Below the pieces are notes generated by a model, which saw only the letters and a program-made list of their open reading frames with translations, made no database searches and was not told where the DNA came from. Below, one piece after another: positions 42,658-64,000 of a DNA stretch of 64,000 nucleotides (its first letter is position 1; every line of letters begins with the position of its first letter). The stretch is from an uncultured Alkaliphilus sp. (lineage in GTDB: Bacteria > Bacillota > Clostridia > Peptostreptococcales > Natronincolaceae): contig CALJEQ010000005.1 in assembly GCA_938074565.1 (NCBI GenBank), positions 62,001 to 126,000 on the forward strand, read 5' to 3'. A program made the translations under genes and the position numbers.

Positions 42658-43000
42658 ATGTGGGCTTTATTGACTGGAACGATACCGTTTGTCTTCAAAC
42701 CATTGATGTTGGCAGTATCTTTTATTTCCAGCAGTGCTTCTTTTCCTCAACCCCTTACGCCAGAGGAGGAAGCCATATACTTAGAACGATATGAAACAGG
42801 AGATGAAGAAGCAAGAAATGTACTGGTGGAGAGAAATTTAAGGCTAGTGGCTCACATTGTGAAGAAGTACTCAAATATTGGTGCAGATGCAGACGATCTA
42901 ATATCTATAGGCACAATTGGGTTAATTAAAGGGATTACAACTTTTGATCGAAAGAAAGGTACTAGATTAGCCACTTATGCTGCAAGATGTATCGAAAATG
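42658..43000 (+). pseudogene. sigK: N-terminal half of sporulation sigma factor SigK, interrupted by element insertion
   Basis: FPQPLTPEEEAIYLERYETGDEEARNVLVERNLRLVAHIVKKYSN..DLISIGTIGLIKGITTF..RLATYAARCIEN, after which homology to SigK ceases. Intact upon excision, if the other half lies beyond the window. Confidence 0.92.
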
Positions 43001-43030: not shown

Positions 43031-44614
43031 CTACCCAAAAAGGTAGTGAATATCAAAGTTTTCACCATTCCATTCAATTCTCTTCACAAGATTTTTGATT
43101 AAGTCTCGCTTCTCTTTATAAGGTACTGTATCAATTAGTTGTGAAAAACGCATAATACTTTCGTTAAACACTTCAATATTTAAATCTTCTATCATATTAC
43201 TGTTATCTTCAATCTGTTTTTTAAGTTCTATATTTTCATTTTCTAGTTTTTCCATTTCTGCAAAAATATATTTAGTTACTGTACTGTTTTCATTTGATGC
43301 CAGTTGCTTAACTAAATTTTCAATATGTTTTTTATTGATTTCTATTTTATTTTTCATTTTTTTTATTTCTTTATCTCTGTTTTCTAATTTATCATTATAG
43401 GCTTTAATTCCACTAAAAAGACCAGACTCAATGTCTTTTTTTATTTCATCAATTATAATGTTATCAATATGTCTACCGATTAAATTTTTACAATCACATC
43501 TAACTCCTCTAGAAATATCCTTCATAGAACAAACATAATAGTGAAGCAACTCACCTGTATTCTTACTTTTCTGACCATATTTAATCTTCATAAAACTGTC
43601 ACACTTTGTGCATCTTAGTAAAGTAGACAACATGGCAGCATAAGAACCTTGACGTGGTGCTAATGATTTATTTTGTTGCAATATTTTTTGAACCCTAACC
43701 CAATCCTTACCAGGTATAATACCATTATGTTTACCTATAGAAATAATCCATTCGGACATGTCTTTTTGCTTTACAGACTGTCCTTTTTTGACTAGGTTTT
43801 TATTATATGCCATTACTCCATGCTTACCATTAAATTCAGCTTTATTTTCAGCAATTTGGGCGTTATTAGCTGTAAAATAATCAAATACATCTTCATCAGC
43901 AGTAGCATACACTGGGTTTATAAGTATATGACGAATACCAAATTTGTGAAAATCATTACCTTTTTTAGTTTTAATGTTGTTTTGAACTAAAAAGGTTTCT
44001 ACTTGAGATAAAGATTTTAATTCTAAATACTTTTGAAATACAAGCTGTACAATTTTTAGTTCATCTTCTAGTGGTGAAAGTTTAAACATTTTACGCTCCT
44101 TCATAGATTCATCAAGATATATAATAGGCTCGGACTCAAAGCCTGTTGGGCAGTTACCCCCTAACCACCTACCAGTACGTGCAAGTTGCATCATATTGTC
44201 TTGAATACGTTCAGCTATAGTTTCTCTTTCTAGTTGGGCAAAAACACTAGAAATATACATCATTGCCCTTCCCATCGGGCTTGTGGTATCAAAACTCTCA
44301 CGAAGAGATATAAAAGAAATATTGTATTTCTCAAGTTCTTCAATAGTATTTGAAAAATCAGAAACGTTCCTACTAATCCTATCTAATCTGTAGCAGATTA
44401 GAATATCAATTTTTTTTGCTTTTGCATCCTTCATCATTTTCTTAAACTGAGGTCGATCAATATTGCCACCAGAAAACCCTTCATCTTCATATAAAACTAT
44501 ATCAGCACCAGGGAAGTGTTTTTCTATATACTCTTTACAGAGTTCTATTTGATTAAGGATAGAATCTCCTTTTCCCGTAAATTTTGATTTGCGTGAATAA
44601 ATTGCAACTTTCAA
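43031..44614 (-). CDS. Large serine recombinase, SpoIVCA-like
   Basis: VAIYSRKSKFTGKGDSILNQIELCKEYI, LICYRLDRISRNVSDFSNTIEEL, GRAMMYISSVFAQLERETIAERI, zinc-ribbon-like CTKCDSFM, coiled coil. Confidence 0.95.
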   Translation of the reverse strand: MKVAIYSRKSKFTGKGDSILNQIELCKEYIEKHFPGADIVLYEDEGFSGGNIDRPQFKKMMKDAKAKKIDILICYRLDRISRNVSDFSNTIEELEKYNISFISLRESFDTTSPMGRAMMYISSVFAQLERETIAERIQDNMMQLARTGRWLGGNCPTGFESEPIIYLDESMKERKMFKLSPLEDELKIVQLVFQKYLELKSLSQVETFLVQNNIKTKKGNDFHKFGIRHILINPVYATADEDVFDYFTANNAQIAENKAEFNGKHGVMAYNKNLVKKGQSVKQKDMSEWIISIGKHNGIIPGKDWVRVQKILQQNKSLAPRQGSYAAMLSTLLRCTKCDSFMKIKYGQKSKNTGELLHYYVCSMKDISRGVRCDCKNLIGRHIDNIIIDEIKKDIESGLFSGIKAYNDKLENRDKEIKKMKNKIEINKKHIENLVKQLASNENSTVTKYIFAEMEKLENENIELKKQIEDNSNMIEDLNIEVFNESIMRFSQLIDTVPYKEKRDLIKNLVKRIEWNGENFDIHYLFG

Positions 44615-44707: not shown

Positions 44708-46375
44708 CTATATTCTTAAATCAATTTTTACATCTCTAACTCTTTTTACTAAGTAATGTGTTGATATGAATAATATGAAAGTAGCTAGTAAAATTAATAA
44801 TATTGATATGTCTATATTCTTAAAAAGAAGAGTTCTAAAATAATCACTTAAAAAAATTAAAAGTGGAAGTATACTAAAAATTAGTAGAACCCAAAGTGTT
44901 GAAAACTCGGTTATTTTTTCGCTAATATGTATTAGGTTATTTTTAAGTATGTCATTGCTAAAAATGTTATCTAGATCTTTTGGAGATAACAGGCTTTTAT
45001 AAGATTTTTTTAGACTCTTTATAATTTCATTATAATGCTTTAAGTCGGAAGTAATTCCATTTAATGATACAATCAGATATATGTAAGATATTGAATTTAT
45101 AAACAGTAGTACAATGCTTACATCCCTATTAAATAAATTAGTATATTGTGGGTTTTCACTAAAAATACCAGCAATAAAAATAGTAAATATAAAAGAGAAA
45201 GTAGCTATAAAGTTATTTTTAAAAGAAGATGCAAAGTCACTAATAATATCCCCACTTTTAATAGAAATATCAATTATACTATCAGTTATTTTAGCTTTTA
45301 AATCTATGTATTTCTCTGTGTTTTCTTGAAGGTAAATTGAATGATTAGATTGAATTGATGCTAAGGTATTGTTGTCTACACTTAGTAAGCTATTAGAATA
45401 ATCTAATTCTAGTGTCATAATATTTCTACTTAAAATTAATCTATCATTAATATTACCATCTTTATAAATCCAATGAAATATATTAAAAATAGAGTCGTTG
45501 GGGTTTATCAAGCCTTTATAATCAATCGTTTTTGTAATAAGCTTATAACCCTGTAAGTGTATTTTTAATGTATTATTATCTATAAATTCACTATAATTTG
45601 CAATATTAACTATAGATATTATAAATAAAAGCTTATTAAATAATAAATTTATTTTTTCATTCCTAGACTTAGTATTAAACTTAAAAGAATATGGTGTAAG
45701 TTTTAAATCACAACCAATAAATCTACAGTTAAATTTATACTCTTCTATTGCTTTTGTATCAAAACCATTTTGTATATTATAAGTATTAATAGATTCGATA
45801 CTATGTACAAAGAATATATTATTAGTATAAAATTCATTTTCAGATTCATCAATAAAGAATATAACTTTATTATTATAGTGGACTCGTTTTGAAAAAATTT
45901 CTAAAATTTCTTTAAGGTTTAATCGATCAAGATAGTCTATAAAATAATTAAACAAATAAATTCTATGAGTAGGGTTAATACTTTCTGGTTTACTAAATTT
46001 AATTTCTAAATGCAAATATTCTGATTCATCAATATCTTCAAATTCTTTATCTTTTAAGTATTGAAATTCATCCTGTAATTTAGTTCTTAAATCATCATTA
46101 AGACTTTTTTTATCGTAAAGACCTCTAAAATCTGGGCTACAATTAGGTTCACTTATATCTTTATCTAACGTTCTAAAAATGAATTCAAAGGTATCCGACT
46201 CAAGTTTTTTACATATTTCTTCGATAGTTTGGTAGTAAATCTCAAATGTAGAAAGTTTAAATTTTTCTATCTTATAATTTAATTTTGCTACGCTAAAAGT
46301 TTCTTTGGGTGTTGGATCTATTAATGTATGATTATCTTCAGTAAAAAGAGATATAAACTTAGTTATTAAACTCAT
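44708..46375 (-). CDS. Hypothetical protein with C-terminal transmembrane helices
   Basis: Long soluble N-terminus, about four hydrophobic segments in the C-terminal third. Confidence 0.6.
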   Translation of the reverse strand: MSLITKFISLFTEDNHTLIDPTPKETFSVAKLNYKIEKFKLSTFEIYYQTIEEICKKLESDTFEFIFRTLDKDISEPNCSPDFRGLYDKKSLNDDLRTKLQDEFQYLKDKEFEDIDESEYLHLEIKFSKPESINPTHRIYLFNYFIDYLDRLNLKEILEIFSKRVHYNNKVIFFIDESENEFYTNNIFFVHSIESINTYNIQNGFDTKAIEEYKFNCRFIGCDLKLTPYSFKFNTKSRNEKINLLFNKLLFIISIVNIANYSEFIDNNTLKIHLQGYKLITKTIDYKGLINPNDSIFNIFHWIYKDGNINDRLILSRNIMTLELDYSNSLLSVDNNTLASIQSNHSIYLQENTEKYIDLKAKITDSIIDISIKSGDIISDFASSFKNNFIATFSFIFTIFIAGIFSENPQYTNLFNRDVSIVLLFINSISYIYLIVSLNGITSDLKHYNEIIKSLKKSYKSLLSPKDLDNIFSNDILKNNLIHISEKITEFSTLWVLLIFSILPLLIFLSDYFRTLLFKNIDISILLILLATFILFISTHYLVKRVRDVKIDLRI

Positions 46376-46471
46376 TCAATAGACCCCCTTTACATTAATA
46401 TTTTATGTTAATACTTATATCATAATATCTCTATATATAATACGCAATATTTTATTATTAATAACTTTATA

Positions 46472-47563
46472 TTAACTAATTTCATCTTGTAGTTCTGGAT
46501 TGTTTTCAATTAGTTGTTCAACTGGTGGTGTAAGTAATTCTTTAATAGTATTTTCATCATCTGTTCTTATCTTTAAAAAATATTCTTCTTTTTCCTTTTC
46601 GTGTACTACATAAATTTCATTGCGATTTATCTTTCCTTCTATAGATAGAAGAATAGTTTTAGATTTTAAGGGATGAAATTTTCTAGTAACCAATCTTTTT
46701 TTTATACCTTTGGGGTCAATAGAAAATCTTTTATCAAACCCTTTTTTGCTATCTGCTATCTTGTCTATTTTATCAAAAACTTTATCAATCTCTTCACTAT
46801 CACATATTTTTTTTATAGTTTCCTTAAATTCTTCTAAATCAAAATTTTCGTTGGTTCTAAAATAACTAATAGTTTCATTTCTAAGGTCGGTAAAAATTGC
46901 TCTATCACTGATTTTTTTATCCATTACATTGATGATATTGTCTACGGCATTATCAGTATTAACTTCATCATTATTGCATTTATCTAAATCTAAAAAATCA
47001 TCATACCAATGAACAGCATGGGATTTTTGAATAGAATCATCAATATATATATTATAAACTTCAAATTCTCCATCTATATTTTTAATTTCAAAAATACATA
47101 TTCTTAGGGGAGTTTTTTTCTTTTTATCATAAAGAAAAGCTTCAATTATTTCCATTGAATTACGATTAACACCTGTAAAAAATTCATTCTTCATCAAAAT
47201 ATAGTAGTATCCTTCTTCGTTTTTTATTAAAGACTGTATTAGACCACCACTACTTATTTGTGCAGCACCTCTCGAAAATCTAATTTCAGATTCCAATAGT
47301 TTTTGTGCTATTAGTTCTGAATTTTCATCAAAATTAGCTTGATCTGTTTCATCTTGCAGACACTTTTTTATAATAGCGAAAACTTCGTTAGTATCTCTTT
47401 TAAGTTTATAACGCTGACAATTGGTAGAATCATTTAATACATAAGAAGCTGTTTCGGTAATATAATTTGTCAATGTTTCATGTTCGGAGTCTTTAAAAAT
47501 TATGATTTTGCTTTGTCCATCAATATCATAATAACTTTTTAACAAAATATCTGTATTGTCCAT
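46472..47563 (-). CDS. Hypothetical cytosolic protein
   Basis: ORF 46472..47611; ATG at 47563 preceded by AAAGGAGTG RBS; paired with the downstream membrane protein. Confidence 0.55.
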   Translation of the reverse strand: MDNTDILLKSYYDIDGQSKIIIFKDSEHETLTNYITETASYVLNDSTNCQRYKLKRDTNEVFAIIKKCLQDETDQANFDENSELIAQKLLESEIRFSRGAAQISSGGLIQSLIKNEEGYYYILMKNEFFTGVNRNSMEIIEAFLYDKKKKTPLRICIFEIKNIDGEFEVYNIYIDDSIQKSHAVHWYDDFLDLDKCNNDEVNTDNAVDNIINVMDKKISDRAIFTDLRNETISYFRTNENFDLEEFKETIKKICDSEEIDKVFDKIDKIADSKKGFDKRFSIDPKGIKKRLVTRKFHPLKSKTILLSIEGKINRNEIYVVHEKEKEEYFLKIRTDDENTIKELLTPPVEQLIENNPELQDEIS

Positions 47564-47903
47564 TATGAGCACTCCTTTATAGTTTAAATAGTTAATCAAA
47601 TTATACAACACTATATCTGTTGAATTTTGCTACAATTTGTCGAATGAAATAAAATATTTTCATAAAACAATTTTTAACAAAACAGAAGAAAGAGACCTTC
47701 CCCCACTCACTTATTCAAATAGTAAAAAAGGGGGTTAAGGTTCAAGATTGGGATAACATAAAAGATTATTTAGTAAATGTTTTTTTGTTAACAGAATATT
47801 TGTAATTTAATCATCAAACTTCATAAATAATGTGTTAAAATACAATATAAAGCTTTAAAAATGGAGTGAAATATAGAAATGGAAAAGATAAAGTAGATAA
47901 CAC

Positions 47904-49299: not shown

Positions 49300-50595
49300 G
49301 TGATGAGATTAATGAAATTGACCTTAAATGATATTGTAATAAAAAGTGCTGGCGAGCAACTCAAAGAAAAAATAACAGATAAATTTGGTACATTAAAAGC
49401 TTTTGCAGATTTTTTAGGTATAACCGATAGAGATTTAAGGAGGAAATTAAACTCAAAACAAGTTGAATTATTTAATAGTAGTATTGTTAAATTCAAATTA
49501 CGCTTAACTAATATATTTGAAGCAAGTTATGATGAGCTAGTTCTAACAGACGAAAAGCAAGCTATACGTTTTGTAGATAACCTATTTGAAAACATTCATG
49601 GCTATAAAAATGAAGAAGATATGTTAATTATTAAAAAACTAAAAGATTTATGCTACAGCTACAATCTTACTAGAGAGCTTGTTAAAATTAAGAGGATAGA
49701 AGCAATATATTATTACTATAACGATAGTTTTAATAGAGCCACAGATACTTTAAGAAAAGCCATTGATGAGGCTACTGACAAAAGTTATAAAAATTTAGAG
49801 ATATTCTTTATATGTGATTTAGCGATGTTGTATTATTTTAAAAAAGATAATATTACAGCAGATCAAATATTAAAGACTATAAACATAGCAGAAGCGGAAG
49901 ACAATGAGCTTAAGAAAAGAGTATGCTATAAGTATTATTACAACTGTGCCACCCTTAAACTAAGCATGACGTATTATGAAGAAGCCATTAATTATTACAA
50001 AAAAGCTTTACAGTATAGTAGGGATGATATAGACCAGGGCGTAGTTTTAAGTGGCATAGGTTTAGTATATAAGAAAAAGGGTGAGTATGATAAAGCTTTA
50101 ACTTATTATGATGAAGCCTTAAAAATTCAAAGCGATAATAATACGTTAATTATCACATATAATAACAGGGCAGAGTTATTCCGTTGTATCGGTGACTTAG
50201 AAAATGCACAAGTTGAAATACGTAAGGCTATAAAAATAATTGAGGCTAACAATATTAATACAATGCACAGTGTTATTGTTTATAAAACTGGGTTCGAGAT
50301 AGAAATTGCAAAAGGACAAGTAACTAAAACAATTGATAAAGTAGTTGAATGGCACTATAATATAGAAAAACATCATATATTTAAAGAATATGTTATTGAA
50401 GGACTAGAGATTATTATAACAGAGTTAGAAAAACATCAATCCTTCTTAGATCTGAAAAAAGTTGGTATATTAATTAATGATTTAATAATGAAAGCACAGA
50501 CATCAAATGAAACAAACTATCTTAGCGATTTAGAAAAATATTTAGGTAAGATAGTAACAATATTTTTTAAAAATAAAATAGAATGGAGGTATTAA
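49300..50595 (+). CDS. HTH + TPR regulator, putative RRNPP-type peptide receptor
   Basis: FGTLKAFADFLGITDRDLRRKLNSKQ HTH; TPR units such as AINYYKKALQYSRDDIDQGVVLSGIGLVYKKKGEYDKALTYYDEALKIQ. Confidence 0.78.
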   Translation: MMRLMKLTLNDIVIKSAGEQLKEKITDKFGTLKAFADFLGITDRDLRRKLNSKQVELFNSSIVKFKLRLTNIFEASYDELVLTDEKQAIRFVDNLFENIHGYKNEEDMLIIKKLKDLCYSYNLTRELVKIKRIEAIYYYYNDSFNRATDTLRKAIDEATDKSYKNLEIFFICDLAMLYYFKKDNITADQILKTINIAEAEDNELKKRVCYKYYYNCATLKLSMTYYEEAINYYKKALQYSRDDIDQGVVLSGIGLVYKKKGEYDKALTYYDEALKIQSDNNTLIITYNNRAELFRCIGDLENAQVEIRKAIKIIEANNINTMHSVIVYKTGFEIEIAKGQVTKTIDKVVEWHYNIEKHHIFKEYVIEGLEIIITELEKHQSFLDLKKVGILINDLIMKAQTSNETNYLSDLEKYLGKIVTIFFKNKIEWRY

Positions 50596-50596
50596 A

Positions 50597-50743
50597 ATGA
50601 AAAAGAAAATTATAAGTTTGTTATTAGTAGTATCTATGGCATTGGTTTTAGTAACTAACGTGACCAAGGTTTCCACTGAACAAGAAAATTTAACAACTGA
50701 ATTTAAAATACATACTGATAATCCAAATCCAACACATGTATAA
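50597..50743 (+). CDS. Small exported pro-peptide, candidate cognate signal of the adjacent RRNPP-type regulator
   Basis: Own translation: MKKKIISLLLVVSMALVLVTNVTKVSTEQENLTTEFKIHTDNPNPTHV; TGGAGG RBS inside the 3' end of the regulator; terminator follows. Confidence 0.72.
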   Translation: MKKKIISLLLVVSMALVLVTNVTKVSTEQENLTTEFKIHTDNPNPTHV

Positions 50744-51238: not shown

Positions 51239-51676
51239 TTAGCTGTTATTTTTTTTATCCTTAAACATTATATCGTACATTTGTACTATTTTTTTTATTC
51301 GTTCAGAAATTATTATTTCTGTTTCTTCATTAAGCTTAAAGTCCTTATCTAATAAACCCTCTTCAATAAGACTTTCTACTATTAAGTTGTATATTTCTAA
51401 TTTGTTATTAATATTTGTAGTGTTTTGTAATTTTAAACTTTCTGGTTTTTGTGAATAACTATTTTCTAAATCTTTAGAGTCTGTTTCACATAACAGGTAG
51501 TCAATAGAAACATTAAAAATGTTTGCTAGTTTTTTTAGCATTTCAGTGTCGGGTTCAGCTTTGTTACGTTCCCATTTTGCAACAGCTTGTTGTGTAACAC
51601 CTAACATATCTGCTAATTTTTGTTGAGATAAATTTAATGTATCTCTTAATTGTTTAATTTTAGAACTTAACATTAA
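51239..51676 (-). CDS. XRE-family repressor
   Basis: SSKIKQLRDTLNLSQQKLADMLGVTQQAVAKWERNKAEPDTEMLKKLANIFNVSIDYLL. Confidence 0.88.
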   Translation of the reverse strand, partial: LMLSSKIKQLRDTLNLSQQKLADMLGVTQQAVAKWERNKAEPDTEMLKKLANIFNVSIDYLLCETDSKDLENSYSQKPESLKLQNTTNINNKLEIYNLIVESLIEEGLLDKDFKLNEETEIIISERIKKIVQMYDIMFKDKKNNS

Positions 51677-51757
51677 ACACACTCCTTTCATTTATATTTT
51701 ACAACAAAAAGTTGTTGTGATAAAGAATAACAACTAAAATTCGTAAAAAAATATTGA

Positions 51758-52043: not shown

Positions 52044-52325
52044 CGTTTTAGCAAAAATAACAATTTTAATTATAATAGCGTTCTACGTTTAATTAAAAAA
52101 TCCTTTAATTATTAAAAAGATAAAAAGAATTTGTATGAGGAGTATAAATATGTGATGACCTCCCTCATAGAAGTAATTAAAATTTTTCAAATAAAATGGT
52201 TGCTGAAATGATGGGGAAGTCTCAACAATTTATAAGAAAATGATTTTTTTGCTAAATAAAAGAACTAACACCTATAAGTAATAGTACAATCTAAGCTTCA
52301 CATAAATTGTAGTGGGGGTGGTGAT

Positions 52326-52538
52326 ATGAGTAAAAATCCATATGCCAATATGAAAGTTAGAAAGTTTATCAATGGTGTCCCATTGGAAGAACTTAACGAA
52401 GAAGAATTAAAAGCATTTCGCAAATGGAATACACAGGTAGCAGAAAGAGTTATTTCAAAACATGTTAATAACATGATAGAGAATGGTGCTACCAAACAAG
52501 AAATTATAAATTTTTTAAAGCCAGGGCTAGAAAACTAG
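52326..52538 (+). CDS. Hypothetical small protein
   Basis: 70-aa ORF, GGGGGTGGTG upstream. Confidence 0.5.
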   Translation: MSKNPYANMKVRKFINGVPLEELNEEELKAFRKWNTQVAERVISKHVNNMIENGATKQEIINFLKPGLEN

Positions 52539-52724: not shown

Positions 52725-53306
52725 ATGTACAAAGAAACATCGACCTGGGTGGACATGCAGATTGAATACAAGAACAGCCTCCAGTCAATTAGAAAAGTAA
52801 AAAAACACAGAAAAAATACTGGAAATTTTATTGATGTAGTTGACTGCGAACTGGCAGCAACTATGGAAAATGATCTGGCTACAAGTGTTAAGGAAATGAA
52901 ACAACGTGCTTTGCAAGAATATAAGGCTGTTAGTGCAGAAGATATTATCAACCCTGCTTATGGACTAACGAAGCGTCAAAAGGAAATAACGTTACTTAGA
53001 ATTGAATTTTCTTGCAAGGAAATTGCAGAATGGCTCAAAATAGACATTAGTACAGTATATAGAATACACGAAACATCAATAAATAAGATAATGAAAGTTA
53101 AGCAACAAGAAAAGAAGAATGAAAATGCCTTCGTTGGCTTGAGTAAGAGTCAACAAGAAATATATAAACACTACATAGACGGTTTAAAACAAAAAGAAAT
53201 CGCTGAAAGACTTGATGTAAGTGTAAATACAATTAAAACTCAATTAAAGAGAATAAAGCAAAAAATACAAAATGTAGGGGGTGACAAAACCATACAAATC
53301 AGTTAA
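52725..53306 (+). CDS. Regulator with two sigma region 4/LuxR-like HTHs
   Basis: YGLTKRQKEITLLRIEFSCKEIAEWLKIDISTVYRIHETSINKIMKV and GLSKSQQEIYKHYIDGLKQKEIAERLDVSVNTIKTQLKRIKQKI. Confidence 0.7.
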   Translation: MYKETSTWVDMQIEYKNSLQSIRKVKKHRKNTGNFIDVVDCELAATMENDLATSVKEMKQRALQEYKAVSAEDIINPAYGLTKRQKEITLLRIEFSCKEIAEWLKIDISTVYRIHETSINKIMKVKQQEKKNENAFVGLSKSQQEIYKHYIDGLKQKEIAERLDVSVNTIKTQLKRIKQKIQNVGGDKTIQIS

Positions 53307-56001: not shown

Positions 56002-56070
56002 TTTGACATTTCATGAATAACTGCCCTTGTAGGGGATTTATGGGGAAAGGATGAAGGGAAGGTGGAAAGA

Positions 56071-56465
56071 ATGCTTAGAGCTAAAAGTTATTTCAGTGGA
56101 GCAGGTGGGATGGATCTAGGAATGTTAGGAGCAGGAATAGAAATAATTGAGTCTTATGAAATTGATACAGTTGCTTGTGAGACTCTAAGGAACAATTTCA
56201 AACACCAATTATTACTGATTTAAATGGAATAGCCCCAACCTGTGTAGCTCATTATTCTAAAGACAGATCCACGAGACTCATAAATGATGGAAAGAAAATA
56301 AGACCTTACTCTGTAAGAGAATATGCAAGATTACAAGGTTTCCCTGATTGGTTTAAGTTTAGTGGTACTGACAACGATGCGTACAGGCAAATTGGAAATG
56401 CAGTACCAGTGGACATGGGAAAATGGATAGCACAACAGGCTAAGAGGTATTTTAAAGCTTCATAG
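56071..56465 (+). pseudogene. C5 cytosine DNA methyltransferase remnant (internal deletion and frameshift)
   Basis: Own translation: YFSGAGGMDLGMLGAGIEIIESYEIDTVACETLRNNF then, in another frame, YSVREYARLQGFPDWFKFSGTDNDAYRQIGNAVPVDMGKWIA; central region with the catalytic PC motif is absent. Confidence 0.85.
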
Positions 56466-58153: not shown

Positions 58154-59299
58154 ATGAAAAAAGTAATACCTGCTGGGTGGGACCCAGGAAGGCTAAACAA
58201 CAAGTTGTACCTTGAAAACGACAAAGTGCTAAGTATGAATGCTATATGCTCTGGGTATCAAAGAAGAGTTTTAGAGCAGGAAGAAGGTCCATTAGTAAAT
58301 TTTCTTGATGTGGAATTATACCAAGAAGAAGACTTTATGGGAAGATACTTTGTAGGAGCTATGGCGTATAAGTTTAACCGAGGGGATCTTAGATGGTCAA
58401 CATCGGGTCTTCCTAAATTTCATAGCATTGATTCTGGTAATGATGAAATAGTTAAGCTGATGACTTACTTGGCGTTATCGCAGGTAAGTATAGGGAATGA
58501 AAAGAAGGAAATTTTTTGTTTAGGAACAGGTGTGCCTACAGAAGAATATTTTGAACAACCAGAGTTACTTGCAGACTTTGAAGAAGCGTTGAAGTATGAG
58601 TATAAGGTAGTATTTAAACACCCTAAATTCTGCAATTCTATTGTTAAGATTAGAATAAAATCTGTATATTTTAAGCCTGAAGGTACGTCAGCAATTATTT
58701 CTATGTGTTATTCTGATGATTTTAAGAAAAAACCATTTATTGATAGTTATTTAGAAAAAGGACCTATTATTGGAATGAACATTGGCTCATCCACAACTGA
58801 TGTATCAATTATGAACTCTAAAATGGAGTTTGAACCACAAGGATTTTTTGGATTGCCTATAGGCAGTAGTAATCCACTAAACGAAGTGAGAAATTTATTG
58901 TATAAAAGCTATAATTATGATGTTCCAAAAGTAAAGCTAGATCATTTAATTAGAACCTACAACCTTGTCAAATACAAGGGACATACAATAGATTTAAAAC
59001 AATTATCTAATAAACCATATAAAAACTTAGTTTCACTATTAAAATCACAGTTTTATGATAAGGTTGAGCAAGCAGGCATATTACTTGGTGAGTCGGGGGC
59101 ACTCTTTATATCTGGGGGGACATGTCTCAGACTACAAGACGAACTGCATTCTTTTATTCCTGGTGTACAGACAGTTATCTCCGCTGATCCTCTATTTGAG
59201 GATGCAAGGGGGTATTTTATAGAAGCTAAGTACCACTTAGATAATGAAGAAAGCATACAGAGTGATATATTTAAGGATAACGATATTGAGGGTGTGTAG
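58154..59299 (+). CDS. ParM/Alp-like plasmid segregation actin
   Basis: GMNIGSSTTDVSIMNSK (phosphate-2-like) and AGILLGESGALFISGGTCL (adenosine-like) motifs; followed by a small ParR-like gene. Confidence 0.82.
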   Translation: MKKVIPAGWDPGRLNNKLYLENDKVLSMNAICSGYQRRVLEQEEGPLVNFLDVELYQEEDFMGRYFVGAMAYKFNRGDLRWSTSGLPKFHSIDSGNDEIVKLMTYLALSQVSIGNEKKEIFCLGTGVPTEEYFEQPELLADFEEALKYEYKVVFKHPKFCNSIVKIRIKSVYFKPEGTSAIISMCYSDDFKKKPFIDSYLEKGPIIGMNIGSSTTDVSIMNSKMEFEPQGFFGLPIGSSNPLNEVRNLLYKSYNYDVPKVKLDHLIRTYNLVKYKGHTIDLKQLSNKPYKNLVSLLKSQFYDKVEQAGILLGESGALFISGGTCLRLQDELHSFIPGVQTVISADPLFEDARGYFIEAKYHLDNEESIQSDIFKDNDIEGV

Positions 59300-59301
59300 G
59301 C

Positions 59302-59643
59302 ATGGCAAGAACAAAACGTAAAATATTTAATGCTGGCGATACTACCAGTTACAAGTTTCCAGTTATAAAAAGTTCCCATGGGGATGATTTTTATAGCTGG
59401 TTAAATAACTATTCAAAGTTTGGATATAAGAGCTTTAATAATCTAATTACAGAATCATTAAAACTGAAATTTACAGTGGATAATTTGAAGGTTAGTCAAG
59501 GTTTTGAACAAAATTCAAGTCTACAGTTAGAATGCGTCTATACAAGCAATGATATTTTTGAAATAGATGAAATAGATGAAATTGAAGCAGTTGAAGAAAC
59601 TTGCTCAACATTAAGTAGGACATTTAATTCTATAAAAAGGTAG
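59302..59643 (+). CDS. ParR-like DNA-binding partition protein
   Basis: Small ORF directly after parM-like gene and next to a repeat-rich segment; call rests on position and size. Confidence 0.5.
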   Translation: MARTKRKIFNAGDTTSYKFPVIKSSHGDDFYSWLNNYSKFGYKSFNNLITESLKLKFTVDNLKVSQGFEQNSSLQLECVYTSNDIFEIDEIDEIEAVEETCSTLSRTFNSIKR

Positions 59644-59867
59644 TATTACCAAAGCTGGTATTATCAATATTTAGAACTGAAAAATTATATAAAAGGTATT
59701 ACCTATTTTGAACTTATATAAAAAAGTAATACCTTTTAGGTGTTTTTTTAAAAATAAAACTTCAAAGTACAATAAAAAGTAATTAATTACACCAAAGGAA
59801 TTTAAATAAACATAGGTGATTAATAACAGTAAAGGTAATACCCTATTAAAAAGGTATTACCTTTTTA
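59634..59867. repeat. GGTATTACC/GGTAATACC repeat cluster (candidate parC or rep-binding sites)
   Basis: AAAAGGTATTACC (59691), AGTAATACCTTTT (59725), AAGGTAATACC (~59831), AAAAAGGTATTACCTTTTT (59849), plus degenerate copies near 59636 and 59656. Confidence 0.7.
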
Positions 59868-59886
59868 CAAAGGTGGTGAATAGGCT

Positions 59887-61062
59887 ATGGAAAATTTTAG
59901 CGATATATTAAAGGTACAAGGTGTAAAATCAAAGGGATACGGTATAATAGGTAAATTAGTCATGTTGGATAGACGATTAACAATTGAAGCCAAAGCCATA
60001 TATGCCTATTTCTGTAGTTACGCAGGGGCAGGTTCTACTGCCTTTCCCAGTGTGTCAAAAATAATTGAAGATTTAGAGATAAGCGAAAACCGATTTTACA
60101 AGCATTTTAAACTACTTAAAAACTATGGGTATATATTAGTTGAACAGGTTAAAAAGGGAAGTGGAAAGTTTAGCCACAATCTTTATACACTAACGGAATG
60201 TCCAGAAGAAAAAGTGGAGGAAAAAGTAAGTCCACTTGAAAATGATATTGATAATGATAATGAAGAACTTGCACCGTCCCTTCAAAATGACGATACGGTA
60301 AAAAAAATACCGTCCCTTCAAAATAGAGGTACGGGTAAAATACCGTACCTTAAAAATGAAGGGACGGGACAAAAAGCGTTCCCGTCCCTTAGTTTTCCAT
60401 GCACGGAAAACGTGGGTACTAATATTAACAGGTCTTCTTTAAAATTAACAGATATATATAATAATCTTTCTTTCTATCTATCTAATACAGATAAATTAAG
60501 TAAAGAAGAAAGAGATAAACTTAAAAAGCTACTTAATGAGAAGGATGGAAAGACTGATGGAGAGAATCACAACAAAATAATACAAAAATATGAGTTTGAA
60601 ACCATTTTAGAAAAAGCAGAAGTTCATCAGAGTCAAGATTCTGTAGCAGCAGAACAAGCTTTACGTCTTTTATACTTCAACGATGCACCCCTTAAAATAA
60701 ATAATTTATGTGTATCTCCTGAACAGGTTCGAGAAGATTTAAAAAACAAAATTAATATTAATAGCATCAAAACTGGTTTTAATGACTTTCTAACTCAATC
60801 AAATAATCAGCAAATAAAAAACCCTATAGCTTACTTATCAAAATGTATATACAATGCCATGTGGCACGCCCAACTGAAAACGCAGCTAAAAACTAAAATC
60901 AATGAGCCTGTTACTGCTGATGTAAGTACCGTAGAAAAAAATAACACTGCCCCTCACAGAACAAAATTTCATCTGCCACAGAGCAGATTTACGCAGTACA
61001 CAAATGAAGATCTTGAGACCATGTTGTTAAATAATCAAAAGAAAAAACGTCAAGAGAGTTAA
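59887..61062 (+). CDS. Replication initiator with N-terminal winged-HTH
   Basis: LTIEAKAIYAYFCSYAGAGSTAFPSVSKIIEDLEISENRFYKHFKLLKNYGYILVEQ; repeat-rich linker; adjacent to parMR-like genes. Confidence 0.75.
   Translation: MENFSDILKVQGVKSKGYGIIGKLVMLDRRLTIEAKAIYAYFCSYAGAGSTAFPSVSKIIEDLEISENRFYKHFKLLKNYGYILVEQVKKGSGKFSHNLYTLTECPEEKVEEKVSPLENDIDNDNEELAPSLQNDDTVKKIPSLQNRGTGKIPYLKNEGTGQKAFPSLSFPCTENVGTNINRSSLKLTDIYNNLSFYLSNTDKLSKEERDKLKKLLNEKDGKTDGENHNKIIQKYEFETILEKAEVHQSQDSVAAEQALRLLYFNDAPLKINNLCVSPEQVREDLKNKININSIKTGFNDFLTQSNNQQIKNPIAYLSKCIYNAMWHAQLKTQLKTKINEPVTADVSTVEKNNTAPHRTKFHLPQSRFTQYTNEDLETMLLNNQKKKRQES
60273..60390. repeat. Iteron-like repeats inside rep coding sequence
   Basis: ACCGTCCCTTCAAAAT at 60273 and 60309, ACCGTACCTTAAAAAT at 60342, CCCGTCCCTT near 60381, with inverted GGTACGGG / GGGACGGG between them; encodes (I)PSLQNxGTGK repeats. 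Confidence 0.8.
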
Positions 61063-61161
61063 TTAAAATTCTGTTTTTATAACTAGTAACATTCACATTT
61101 TACACTATGTCAAAAATATCGATATTCAATTCATTGAATTTAGATGCCTTTGACCGATACT

Positions 61162-61207
61162 GTTACTAGACCGAGAATAGAAACTCGTAGAGTTTCTTAG
61201 TAGTAAC
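61162..61207. repeat. Inverted repeat/hairpin in non-coding region
   Basis: GTTACTA...AGAAACTC gta GAGTTTCT...TAGTAAC. Confidence 0.75.
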
Positions 61208-61346
61208 TGTAATGAAGGTGTCTATACAGGTTATAGGTGTATGTAGGTTGTGTTTTTCGTCCTAATCTATAAAACAGGTAACAAGTAATAAGGAGATACA
61301 TTGTAAGTTTCGGAGGTAGGTTTGGTTTTCTCGTCGTCATATTTTC

Positions 61347-61386
61347 CACGATTTTTAGAACGCAAATTGCAGTTCTAAAATTCGTG
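61347..61386. repeat. Long inverted repeat
   Basis: CACGATTTTTAGAAC gcaaattgca GTTCTAAAATTCGTG, 15-bp arms with one mismatch. Confidence 0.85.
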
Positions 61387-61439
61387 ACAGATTCACATTA
61401 GGGAGGGGGCGAAAAAATTAGGAAGGAGTTGTGGTTGTG

Positions 61440-61787
61440 GTGCTTAATGAAATTATAAATATATTTGTAAAAACAGTAGAAGAATTAATAGATTACAATT
61501 TGCCAAACAATGGTAAATTATACATTGAAACCAAGAATGGTGAATATGTGAACTTTAGACCGAAGGATTTTAAAAACAAAATAATTTCAGTTACTAAAGA
61601 AAAAGATATAAATAAATATCTTAATTATTTTAAAGGATTAGGTTTAATTGTAACTACAGGTAAACACAGCTACAGTAATATTCAAAGAGTTAAGAGCAAA
61701 ACGAGAAGGGTTACCACTGTAGAAAAGAATAAATTTCTTTTGCTTAAAAAATTGTTAGAGTCAGAAAAGGAGAAAACAATGGGGTAA
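61440..61787 (+). CDS. Small putative DNA-binding protein in TcpK position
   Basis: ORF 61431..61787; INKYLNYFKGLGLIVTTGKHSYSNIQRVKSKTRRVTTVEKNKFLLLKKLL compatible with winged HTH; precedes tyrosine recombinase and FtsK-like genes. Confidence 0.5.
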   Translation: MLNEIINIFVKTVEELIDYNLPNNGKLYIETKNGEYVNFRPKDFKNKIISVTKEKDINKYLNYFKGLGLIVTTGKHSYSNIQRVKSKTRRVTTVEKNKFLLLKKLLESEKEKTMG

Positions 61788-61810
61788 CGATAGATGTAGA
61801 TAAATTCAAA

Positions 61811-62587
61811 GTGTACTTAGATGAGTTAATAGCAAAAAAAGAAATCACCCCCGATACAGCCAGAACCTATAAATCCTGCATTAAGCAACTAAAAAACAGT
61901 TGTTCTAGTTTAAGTGCTGAATCATTTAAAGAATATATGTTAAAGAATGTGAAGGATAAGGGTGGGTTATTAAAGTTTGTATCTGCACTTAGAAAGTATG
62001 AGATTGGTATACTAAAGCAAGAAAAGGGAATTTTGTTTGGTGAACCAGAAGTAGAGCTATTTAAGGCATTTAAAGAAGCACCAACAAACAATAAAAAACT
62101 AATATTAAAAAATTCTAATGACAGGATAGAGAGAAAAATTAATGGATTAAGAAATAAAAAACTAAAAATAGCTTTAAGGTTACAATTAAGGTCAGGATTA
62201 AGGGTTGCTGAAATAGCAGAAATAAGAAAAAACGACCTGTTATTTGATGATGAAAAAATAAAAATAGAAGTAAGGGATGGGAAGGGCAGAAAAAGTAGGG
62301 AAGTGGAAGTTCTAAACGATGCATATCTTTTAGAAAACTTAGTTGAACAAGTTGAAACTCTTAAATCCAACGATAAAGTATTCTACAGTAGAGATTATCT
62401 AAGACATAAAGCAGCAGCAATAGGGATTGAAACACACGATCTAAGAAGAATTAATGCAAAAAATAGATTAGAAGAAGAAATAGATATGGGTAAATCTACT
62501 GAAGAAGCTAAAGATTTAGTTCGTAAACAACTGGGGCACGAAACCATACGAATGACTAACCTATATCTTAGATACAAATATAAATAA
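61811..62587 (+). CDS. Tyrosine recombinase-family protein (integrase or TcpM-like relaxase)
   Basis: SGLRVAEIAEIR, DGKGRKSREVEV, HDLRR, LGHETIRMTNLYL: full R-K-HxxR-H-Y set. Confidence 0.88.
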   Translation: MYLDELIAKKEITPDTARTYKSCIKQLKNSCSSLSAESFKEYMLKNVKDKGGLLKFVSALRKYEIGILKQEKGILFGEPEVELFKAFKEAPTNNKKLILKNSNDRIERKINGLRNKKLKIALRLQLRSGLRVAEIAEIRKNDLLFDDEKIKIEVRDGKGRKSREVEVLNDAYLLENLVEQVETLKSNDKVFYSRDYLRHKAAAIGIETHDLRRINAKNRLEEEIDMGKSTEEAKDLVRKQLGHETIRMTNLYLRYKYK

Positions 62588-62608
62588 TACAATAAAGGAG
62601 AGGATAAC

Positions 62609-64000
62609 TTGGCAAAGGAAGATGAAATAGTTGGGCAATATATATACAACTTCTTAAAGGGGTTATTTAACTTTTTTAAAACCGTCTACTATGGAATTAA
62701 GAGACTGCCAGAAAAGAAAAATAACTTTTATACGTTAGCAGTAATTACAGCCATTGCATTAGGGCTTTTTTTATTGCGACAAAAAGTATGGCAGTTAATT
62801 CCTACTGAAAATAAAAAAATGAATGTTTTAAAATATGCCATTTATGCCACCCCAATAACCCCTTTACTGTACCTATATGGACTAGGTGAAGCACATCTTA
62901 AATTTAGAGGTGAGTTTGATGAAAAGTTTGACGAAATAGGTTTATTTACTAAGGGTAAGAAGAAAGATTTTAATGGTAATATGGTTGAAAAAAAAATTTA
63001 TCCTAAATATTTAGGAGAAGAAAAGGAGGGAAATATTACAACGTATTCCTTCTACAGCAACATACCTTTGGAAGACTGGAGAATTAAAATCAGAAATATA
63101 GAAAATATGCTAGATTGCAATATTTTAAAAATTGAAAATGCTATTTCCACAAAAAAGGTAGTTAAAATACAAACAGTACCAGCGTCTAAAATTATTCCAT
63201 TGTATTTAGATTGGAAGGATTTATACATTTCAGATAAAGACTTTGAAATAATAGTTGGGGAAAATATGTTAGAACAAATTAGATTTAACTTAAATAGTAC
63301 CCCCCACGCCCTAATAGCAGGTGAAACAGGAAGTGGTAAGTCTGTTATTTTAAGATTAATTTTAAGGCAAGCAGTATTAAAATCTAGTAAAATAATCATG
63401 ATTGACTTCAAAGGGGGCGTAGAGTTCGGTATTAAATACGAACGCTATGGAGAAGTCATCACTGAAAGACAAAGAGCATTGGAACGTCTAAAGGAACTTA
63501 CTGTAGAAAATGATGCCAGGTTAAAACTTTTTAGAAAGTTAGATGTTAAAAATCTAGGTGAATACAATAAGTTAGCTGAAAAAACCACAAACTTTAAAAA
63601 GCTTTGTAGAATACTTGTGTTTTGTGATGAAGTTGCAGAAATGATGGATAAGTCTGGTTCTTCAAAAGATGATAAAAAAGTTCTTGAGCAAATAGAAAAA
63701 GAAATATCTACACTTGCCCGTCTAGCACGGGCAACGGGGATCAACTTAATTTTAGGTATGCAAAGACCTGATGCTAAGGTTTTACCAGGTCAAATTAAAA
63801 ACAACATACCTGTAAGAATATCTGGAAGGTTTGCAGATAAACCTGCATCGGAAATAGTTTTAGGAAATTCTAAAGCAACAGAACTTCCAGAAACAAAAGG
63901 TCGATTTCTTTTTAAAGTTGGGGCCGATACCTTAGAGTTTCAAGCCTATAACTTCGATGATAATAAAATGCTTACAGATATTGAAGTGTCAAATGGGGGC
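62609..64000 (+). CDS. FtsK/TcpA-like DNA translocase/coupling ATPase, truncated by window edge
   Basis: Own translation from TTG 62609: N-terminal TMs, ALIAGETGSGKSVILRLILRQ Walker A, ILVFCDEVAEMMD Walker B, LARATGINLILGMQRPDAKVLPGQIKNNIPVRISGRF. Confidence 0.9.
   Translation, partial: MAKEDEIVGQYIYNFLKGLFNFFKTVYYGIKRLPEKKNNFYTLAVITAIALGLFLLRQKVWQLIPTENKKMNVLKYAIYATPITPLLYLYGLGEAHLKFRGEFDEKFDEIGLFTKGKKKDFNGNMVEKKIYPKYLGEEKEGNITTYSFYSNIPLEDWRIKIRNIENMLDCNILKIENAISTKKVVKIQTVPASKIIPLYLDWKDLYISDKDFEIIVGENMLEQIRFNLNSTPHALIAGETGSGKSVILRLILRQAVLKSSKIIMIDFKGGVEFGIKYERYGEVITERQRALERLKELTVENDARLKLFRKLDVKNLGEYNKLAEKTTNFKKLCRILVFCDEVAEMMDKSGSSKDDKKVLEQIEKEISTLARLARATGINLILGMQRPDAKVLPGQIKNNIPVRISGRFADKPASEIVLGNSKATELPETKGRFLFKVGADTLEFQAYNFDDNKMLTDIEVSNGG

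Follow-up and report, generated by a model that had tools for sequence, protein, structure and literature searches.

A Tcp-type conjugation gene set within an element that splits sigK in an uncultured Alkaliphilus

The stretch of DNA analysed here, a window of 64,000 nucleotides (positions 62001-126000 of the 254,893-bp contig C5), comes from an uncultured Alkaliphilus sp. and contains the 5' half of the sporulation gene sigK. A 43,855-bp element, running from w42996 to w86851 (w marks the numbering of the window extended past its end), interrupts this gene at a single codon. We propose that the element is very probably an integrative and conjugative element (ICE) with plasmid functions, in which a serine integrase, MOBM/Tcp transfer genes, Rep and ParMR are joined by Tad genes and which is inserted site-specifically in sigK. 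The presence of a serine integrase of its own makes the name ICE fit it no less well than that of an integrated plasmid. A first-pass annotation of this DNA had inferred an integrated conjugative plasmid of the pCW3/Tcp type rather than a prophage. This was largely right: the Tcp gene set and the lack of recognised phage genes agree with it, whereas membership of the pCW3 family does not stand.

The split gene and its transfer region

That an element interrupts sigK was the premise of the earlier reading, and it holds. When the AAATG at 42996 is joined to the AAATG at w86851, an uninterrupted sigK results, which reads ...RCIENEILMTIRSSKKLKTEV... and matches the intact sigK of the same-genus genome G001 and of G016 (G numbers denote the genomes compared). 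Each half is 98% identical to the joined composite protein, and no intact copy is found among this genome's sigK matches. A large serine recombinase adjoins the 5' half, the position of the SpoIVCA/CD1231-type enzymes, and related recombinases stand next to the same half of sigK in G002, G003, G005, G009 and others. As in a skin element, the insertion lies within sigK, the frame is restored when the halves are joined, and the junction carries a large serine recombinase.

Between the attachment (att) sites lies the gene complement of an ICE: integrase, relaxase, coupling protein and channel genes. Of the markers of the Tcp type (MPF-FA, TcpA/MOBM), it has a TcpA coupling protein, VirB4/TcpF, TcpC, TcpE, a predicted MOBM relaxase that retains the catalytic tyrosine, and a predicted TcpK fold. 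All eight features that had been described from the ParM-like gene to the FtsK-like ATPase were confirmed, in the order given and on the + strand. The ATPase matches PDB entries 6o1w-6o1z, titled 'DNA translocase coupling protein' and which we take to be pCW3 TcpA, at 3.5e-96, compared with 8.6e-17 for FtsK. On these values an FtsK/SpoIIIE identity was rejected, and the protein groups with TcpA, as had been predicted. It is also 44% identical to the FtsK/SpoIIIE-domain protein beside tcpM on plasmid NZ_CP046516. A structure of TcpA has been solved (PMC12857230).

The gene at 61811 is best read as a MOBM relaxase of the TcpM type, the identity first suggested for it. Its product is 34% identical, end to end, to the NCBI-named MobM relaxase TcpM of NZ_CP046516, with which R131, H209, R212 and Y252 align, Y252 being the predicted catalytic tyrosine. 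TcpM needs a tyrosine, and the other recombinase residues are dispensable (PMC12857230). The same four tyrosine-recombinase residues and the Pfam Phage_integrase match would also suit a second integrase, in which case the element would move by integration and excision only. We consider this very unlikely given the end-to-end identity to a named relaxase, the tcpK-tcpM-tcpA gene order in four genomes and a conserved region resembling an origin of transfer (oriT) close to the gene.

For TcpK the evidence comes from a predicted fold. By sequence, the small basic protein has no match to the tcpK-position gene of NZ_CP046516, and its identity to TcpK is only 13%. An AlphaFold (AF2) model was built from a four-sequence alignment (predicted local distance difference test, pLDDT, 89.5) and searched with Foldseek; the top seven PDB hits were all TcpK (5VFX/5VFY; template modelling score 0.71-0.85, best E 3.1e-6), with the next-best other protein at 4e-3. 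The modelled fold supports the assignment to TcpK of this gene, which the first-pass annotation had read as 61440..61787.

Conjugation genes had been predicted to continue right of the window, and genes for TcpC, a TcpD-like protein, TcpE, VirB4/TcpF and a TcpH-like protein are present there (Table 1). The fuller expectation of TcpB-TcpJ-like and NlpC/P60 genes came true in part: TcpC to TcpF and the TcpH-like protein were found, neither tcpB nor tcpJ was recognised in the element, and an M23 gene takes the place of NlpC/P60. Structural and packaging genes of a prophage (terminase, portal, capsid, tail) were recognised nowhere in the element, including its part right of the window. With no recognised phage particle genes and a near-complete conjugation set, the element is therefore probably a transferable plasmid-like element. 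The outcomes named beforehand as counting against this, phage genes without conjugation genes to the right or an ATPase grouping with FtsK, thus both fell in favour of the earlier reading.

Table 1. Features of the element and of the interrupted gene, from left to right
Feature	Position	Strand	Evidence or content
sigK 5' half	42658..43000	+	attL core AAATG at 42996-43000
Large serine recombinase, integrase/excisionase	43031..44614	-	Pfam Resolvase 8.6e-39, Recombinase 2.1e-16, Zn_ribbon_recom
Tetratricopeptide repeat (TPR) regulator, RRNPP-like architecture	49300..50595	+	TPR_2 1e-13; weak N-terminal helix-turn-helix (HTH)-like DUF739 6e-4; architecture only
48-amino-acid (aa) peptide, signal-peptide-like start, then terminator-like hairpin	50597..50743	+	sequence inspection
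Xre/CI-like repressor	51239..51691	-	HTH_3 2.3e-20; G004 homologue (1e-15) upstream of transfer genes
sigmaE-like promoter of candidate recombination directionality factor (RDF)	52280..52307	+	ATA-N17-CATAAATT
70-aa candidate RDF	52326..52538	+	
Sigma/HTH-type regulator	52725..53306	+	Sigma70_r4_2 1.5e-14; G004 homologue (3e-17) upstream of transfer genes
ParM-like actin	58154..59299	+	ALP_N 1e-6, over cut-off; 61-62% to G016 and G007
ParR-like adaptor	59302..59643	+	position, size, synteny; 43% to G016 and G007
parC/iteron-like repeat cluster	59642..59861		GGTAWTACC cores, both orientations
Rep-like protein	59887..61062	+	N-terminal HTH_36 8.6e-11; 53% to G016
Candidate oriT	61083..61285		GTAAC - ACACTAT - GTTAC - GAATAGAAA - GTAAC - GTAAC
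15-bp inverted repeat before tcpK	61347..61386		
TcpK-like relaxosome accessory protein	61431..61787	+	small basic protein; predicted-fold match
TcpM-like (MOBM) relaxase	61811..62587	+	Pfam Phage_integrase 1e-13
TcpA coupling ATPase	62609..64000	+	cut at window end; 540 aa in full, to w64231
TcpC	right of window		Pfam 7.8e-25; PDB 3ub1 9e-21
TcpD-like membrane protein	right of window		TcpD domain 1e-4, just under cut-off
TcpE	right of window		4.6e-14, over cut-off
VirB4/TcpF ATPase	right of window		AAA_10 1.6e-84; NCBIfam TcpF 1.2e-127, below strict cut-off; 36% to plasmid VirB4
TcpH-like membrane protein	right of window		CD3337/EF1877 family NF046089, over cut-off; 25% to TcpH
M23 peptidase/hydrolase	right of window, after TcpH-like gene		
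TadZ-position AAA protein	right of window, after M23 gene		position, weak or generic match
TadA/CpaF	right of window		1e-28 to solved CpaF; clear match
Two TadB/TadC-position membrane proteins	right of window		position, weak or generic matches
Prepilin-like 80-aa protein	right of window		by inspection
Two more small membrane-anchored proteins	after 80-aa prepilin-like protein		
CpaB-like SAF protein	right of window		4.8e-6, below cut-off
Surface layer homology (SLH) protein and 1643-aa surface protein	after CpaB-like gene		
Type IV prepilin peptidase (A24)	right of window		5e-15; clear match
YdjM-family protein	last before sigK 3' half		
sigK 3' half	w86851-87220		other AAATG copy at w86851

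Relatives and competing histories

Three other members of the family encode a relative of the VirB4 protein at 69-78% identity: Alkaliphilus pronyensis LacV on contig 16 (40,139 bp), an Alkaliphilus metagenome-assembled genome (MAG) on a contig of 81,502 bp and a Clostridiaceae MAG on one of 580 kb. G016, G007 and G004 keep the gene order from tcpK through to the CpaB-like gene; ParM and ParR are common to G016 and G007, and Rep to G016. Because sigK is intact in G016, G007 and G004, the transfer backbone occurs independently of sigK. Among the contigs of the relatives, the two shorter ones (G007:C8 and G004:C47) look plasmid-like.

These relatives bear on another history, in which a non-integrating conjugative plasmid was captured by recombination into a small pre-existing sigK element, where it now rides as passive cargo, immobile as a unit. 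The stretches compared in G016, G007 and G004 hold no copy of the sigK recombinase, the ParM/Rep/tcp block resembles a plasmid backbone, and small sigK elements with a recombinase and without transfer genes are common. However, the att sites enclose a single unit with an integrase, an oriT-like site and a full complement of transfer genes, so that ICE-like transfer and integration would be possible anyway, and no internal junction was seen, although no systematic search was made for one. We regard capture as possible but unlikely.

The same codon of sigK receives quite different elements. Those of G002 (~3.6 kb), G005 (~5.5 kb) and G009 (34.6 kb) enter there with recombinases 48-56% identical, and their contents differ; in G009 (L025/L026, G009:C50 28001-64500) a phage-like head/tail gene order was read from open reading frame (ORF) order and sequence alone. 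The cargo that goes with this attachment site and type of recombinase ranges from phage-like and minimal to conjugative. Such a phage-like sigK element within the family, the CI-like regulators and phage-collection matches of the left arm, and the usual description of sigK elements as prophage-like could all be cited for a degenerate skin-like prophage that holds some conjugation-like genes by chance. We find this extremely improbable, since neither packaging genes (terminase, portal) nor genes for capsid or tail were recognised in the element, the near-complete Tcp set has intact frames and G004, a conjugative relative, also has two of the left-arm regulators. We rejected a prophage because of what the element encodes, notably the conjugation genes right of the window.

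A recombinase of this group was found in 54 of the 299 genomes of the order, and ten genomes besides this one were seen to have it at sigK; a genome-wide search for TcpC came up empty in all ten. At class level, twenty genomes have a sigma-factor match beside the recombinase, although some of these matches are at 42-55% identity and may not be sigK, and a TcpC/VirB4 set appeared in one of them (G532), on a contig other than the recombinase's. The survey took the top recombinase hits of sampled genomes and then checked up to 30 other genomes for TcpC/VirB4, and it is therefore not exhaustive.

Several points weigh against our proposal of an ICE with plasmid functions. Tests of circular closure of G007:C8 and G004:C47 found no terminal overlap and no support from ORFs across the joined ends, so the plasmid state of the relatives is unproven. 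While the element is integrated, an active rep/par set would have to be silenced, and some left-arm genes match unknown-function families from phage collections. The circular form and its transfer are predicted from the genes.

Predicted excision and replication, and a possible link to sporulation

The 70-aa protein encoded at 52326 is probably the RDF, or excision factor, of the element. We infer this from its co-occurrence with the closest recombinase relatives and from a common sigmaE-like promoter. Just three relatives were found in the 299 genomes of the order, and each of their genomes also carries a recombinase that is among the nearest to the one at sigK: one is inside the G002 sigK element, and those on G003:C6 and G002:C1 lie ~1.6 and 13 kb from such recombinases. 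A second recombinase/RDF pair in G002 and G003 is located away from sigK, next to a 352-375-aa gene that is similar in the two genomes. In all four genes AATAG[T/G]ACA[A/T]TC, then CATA, precedes the matched start by 38-45 bp, and the strict motif AATAG.ACA.TC-N9-13-CATA..TT has a single + strand occurrence in the window; this layout is compatible with a sigmaE promoter. The RDF of the C. difficile skin element, CD1234, which is controlled by sigmaE and SpoIIID (PMC5025042), falls in the same size class at 72 aa.

The ParM-like protein matches one plasmid record only, at 24%, the ParR-position protein has no Pfam match, and the N-terminal part of the Rep-like protein matches plasmid HTH proteins. 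GGTAWTACC, allowing at most one mismatch, has six copies in the 220-bp repeat cluster, compared with 24 in the whole window. Between the Rep-like gene and tcpK, which is 23 bp from tcpM, 61063-61430 is non-coding and includes a conserved block upstream of tcpK. The motif order of the candidate oriT is kept there in G000, G016 and G007, with spacings agreeing to ~2 bp, and the 9-mer GAATAGAAA is common to four genomes; such a shared length appeared in 0 of 500 dinucleotide shuffles. At about the same place before tcpK, G016 and G007 have inverted repeats of their own, of 12 and 10 bp.

Further left, the gene for the 48-aa peptide begins 1 bp after that of the TPR regulator (together 49300..50743). 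The peptide looks like a candidate pro-signal of the regulator, and the pair resembles an RRNPP quorum-sensing system inside the element. By analogy with Rap-Phr type systems, a TPR regulator with an exported-looking peptide suggests peptide-signal control of the element.

We hypothesize that the serine recombinase inserts a circular form into a single codon of sigK and that, together with the probable excision factor, it would remove this DNA again and restore sigK, the sigmaE-like promoter of the candidate RDF placing this event in the mother cell. The free circle would be replicated by Rep and partitioned by ParM, ParR and the repeats. TcpK and TcpM would act at oriT within 61083-61285, and TcpA would feed a DNA strand to the TcpC/D/E/F/H channel. 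The M23 hydrolase would open the cell wall, and Tad-type pili, the SLH protein and the 1643-aa surface protein may aid cell contact. In a more speculative version, to which we give little credence at present, sporulation itself is the excision switch: sigmaE would induce the RDF in the mother cell, the replicating circle would be conjugated out of the doomed cell, and the forespore would keep the integrated copy. A coupling of sporulation timing to horizontal transfer becomes testable in this element.

Other observations concern the surroundings of these genes. A surface/pilus module at w76165..86624 (L006/L011; prepilin-like, CpaB-like, SLH and 1643-aa proteins and the prepilin peptidase) is attached to the Tcp system, its SLH and 1643-aa proteins being weakly conserved among relatives. 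Two - strand genes at 44708..47611, between recombinase and left-arm regulators, encode proteins of 555 aa (with membrane segments) and 379 aa that have no Pfam or PADLOC match and are a possible accessory or defence pair. The product of 53951..54700 matches phrog_2600 (4e-49) and that of 56523..57221 matches phrog_1672 (1e-30), both PHROGs of unknown function; part of the latter protein is also encoded upstream of parM in G007. A 53-aa C-5 cytosine methylase fragment (56062..56223; PF00145 4.5e-7) is a remnant gene. A PADLOC defence search of the left arm returned generic TPR and methylase-fragment matches only, and Rfam gave no match in 42000-64000. Just 3' of the sigK 3' half, an array resembling clustered regularly interspaced short palindromic repeats spans w87689..89018 (L011 9689..11018), with unit TTTATAATTCCCTTTGGGAATTGAAAC at a spacing of ~75 bp.

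Comparison with known systems

Elements in sigK have been described as prophage(-like) or as infectious prophages (PMC5595907, PMC13141910), and our literature search, which mostly did not reach subscription papers, found no report of a conjugative one. Like skin of B. subtilis and C. difficile, the present element splits sigK, has a serine recombinase at the 5' half and a short att core, and carries a small RDF-like gene with a sigmaE-like promoter (PMC5025042). The cargo differs: skin holds prophage remnants, whereas here it is a conjugation and pilus system, with excision predicted from sequence. The only other non-phage element in a sporulation gene that this search brought up is gin, which lies in gerE of B. 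cereus ATCC10987 and is reported without the conjugation structural genes found here (PMC5595907). Its authors proposed conjugative spread even though gin is without transfer genes (PMC5595907). The spread of sigK elements by conjugation had been a guess, for which a Tcp/MOBM-bearing sigK element provides a concrete vehicle.

Homologues of TcpK, TcpM, TcpA, TcpC, TcpE, TcpF and TcpH, together with a TcpD-like protein, are shared with the Tcp system of pCW3 (PMC6137059; PMC12857230). In pCW3, however, oriT lies between tcpK and tcpM, whereas the oriT-like region here is upstream of tcpK, and so the arrangement differs. The present element is also integrated, with its own serine integrase. An M23 hydrolase for NlpC/P60, a Tad cluster and the lack of a recognised tcpB or tcpJ, together with the position of the oriT-like region, place it outside the pCW3 family proper.

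A parallel to the pilus genes comes from the Flp/tad plasmids of Cutibacterium acnes, where, in the part of the source available to us, a tad locus stands beside FtsK-, VirB4- and TcpC-like genes on one plasmid (PMC5696575). Those plasmids are linear, actinobacterial and outside sigK, and that part makes no mention of TcpK or MOBM (PMC5696575). The present element documents a Tcp channel set beside Tad-type pilus genes in Clostridia. With ICEs of the ICEBs1/Tn916 type it has in common the integrated state and a VirB4/TcpC/TcpE-type channel (MPF-FA). Such ICEs use tyrosine integrases, whereas the integrase here is a serine recombinase. Their relaxase is of the MOBT type (PMC12857230), in contrast to the predicted MOBM relaxase of the sigK element.

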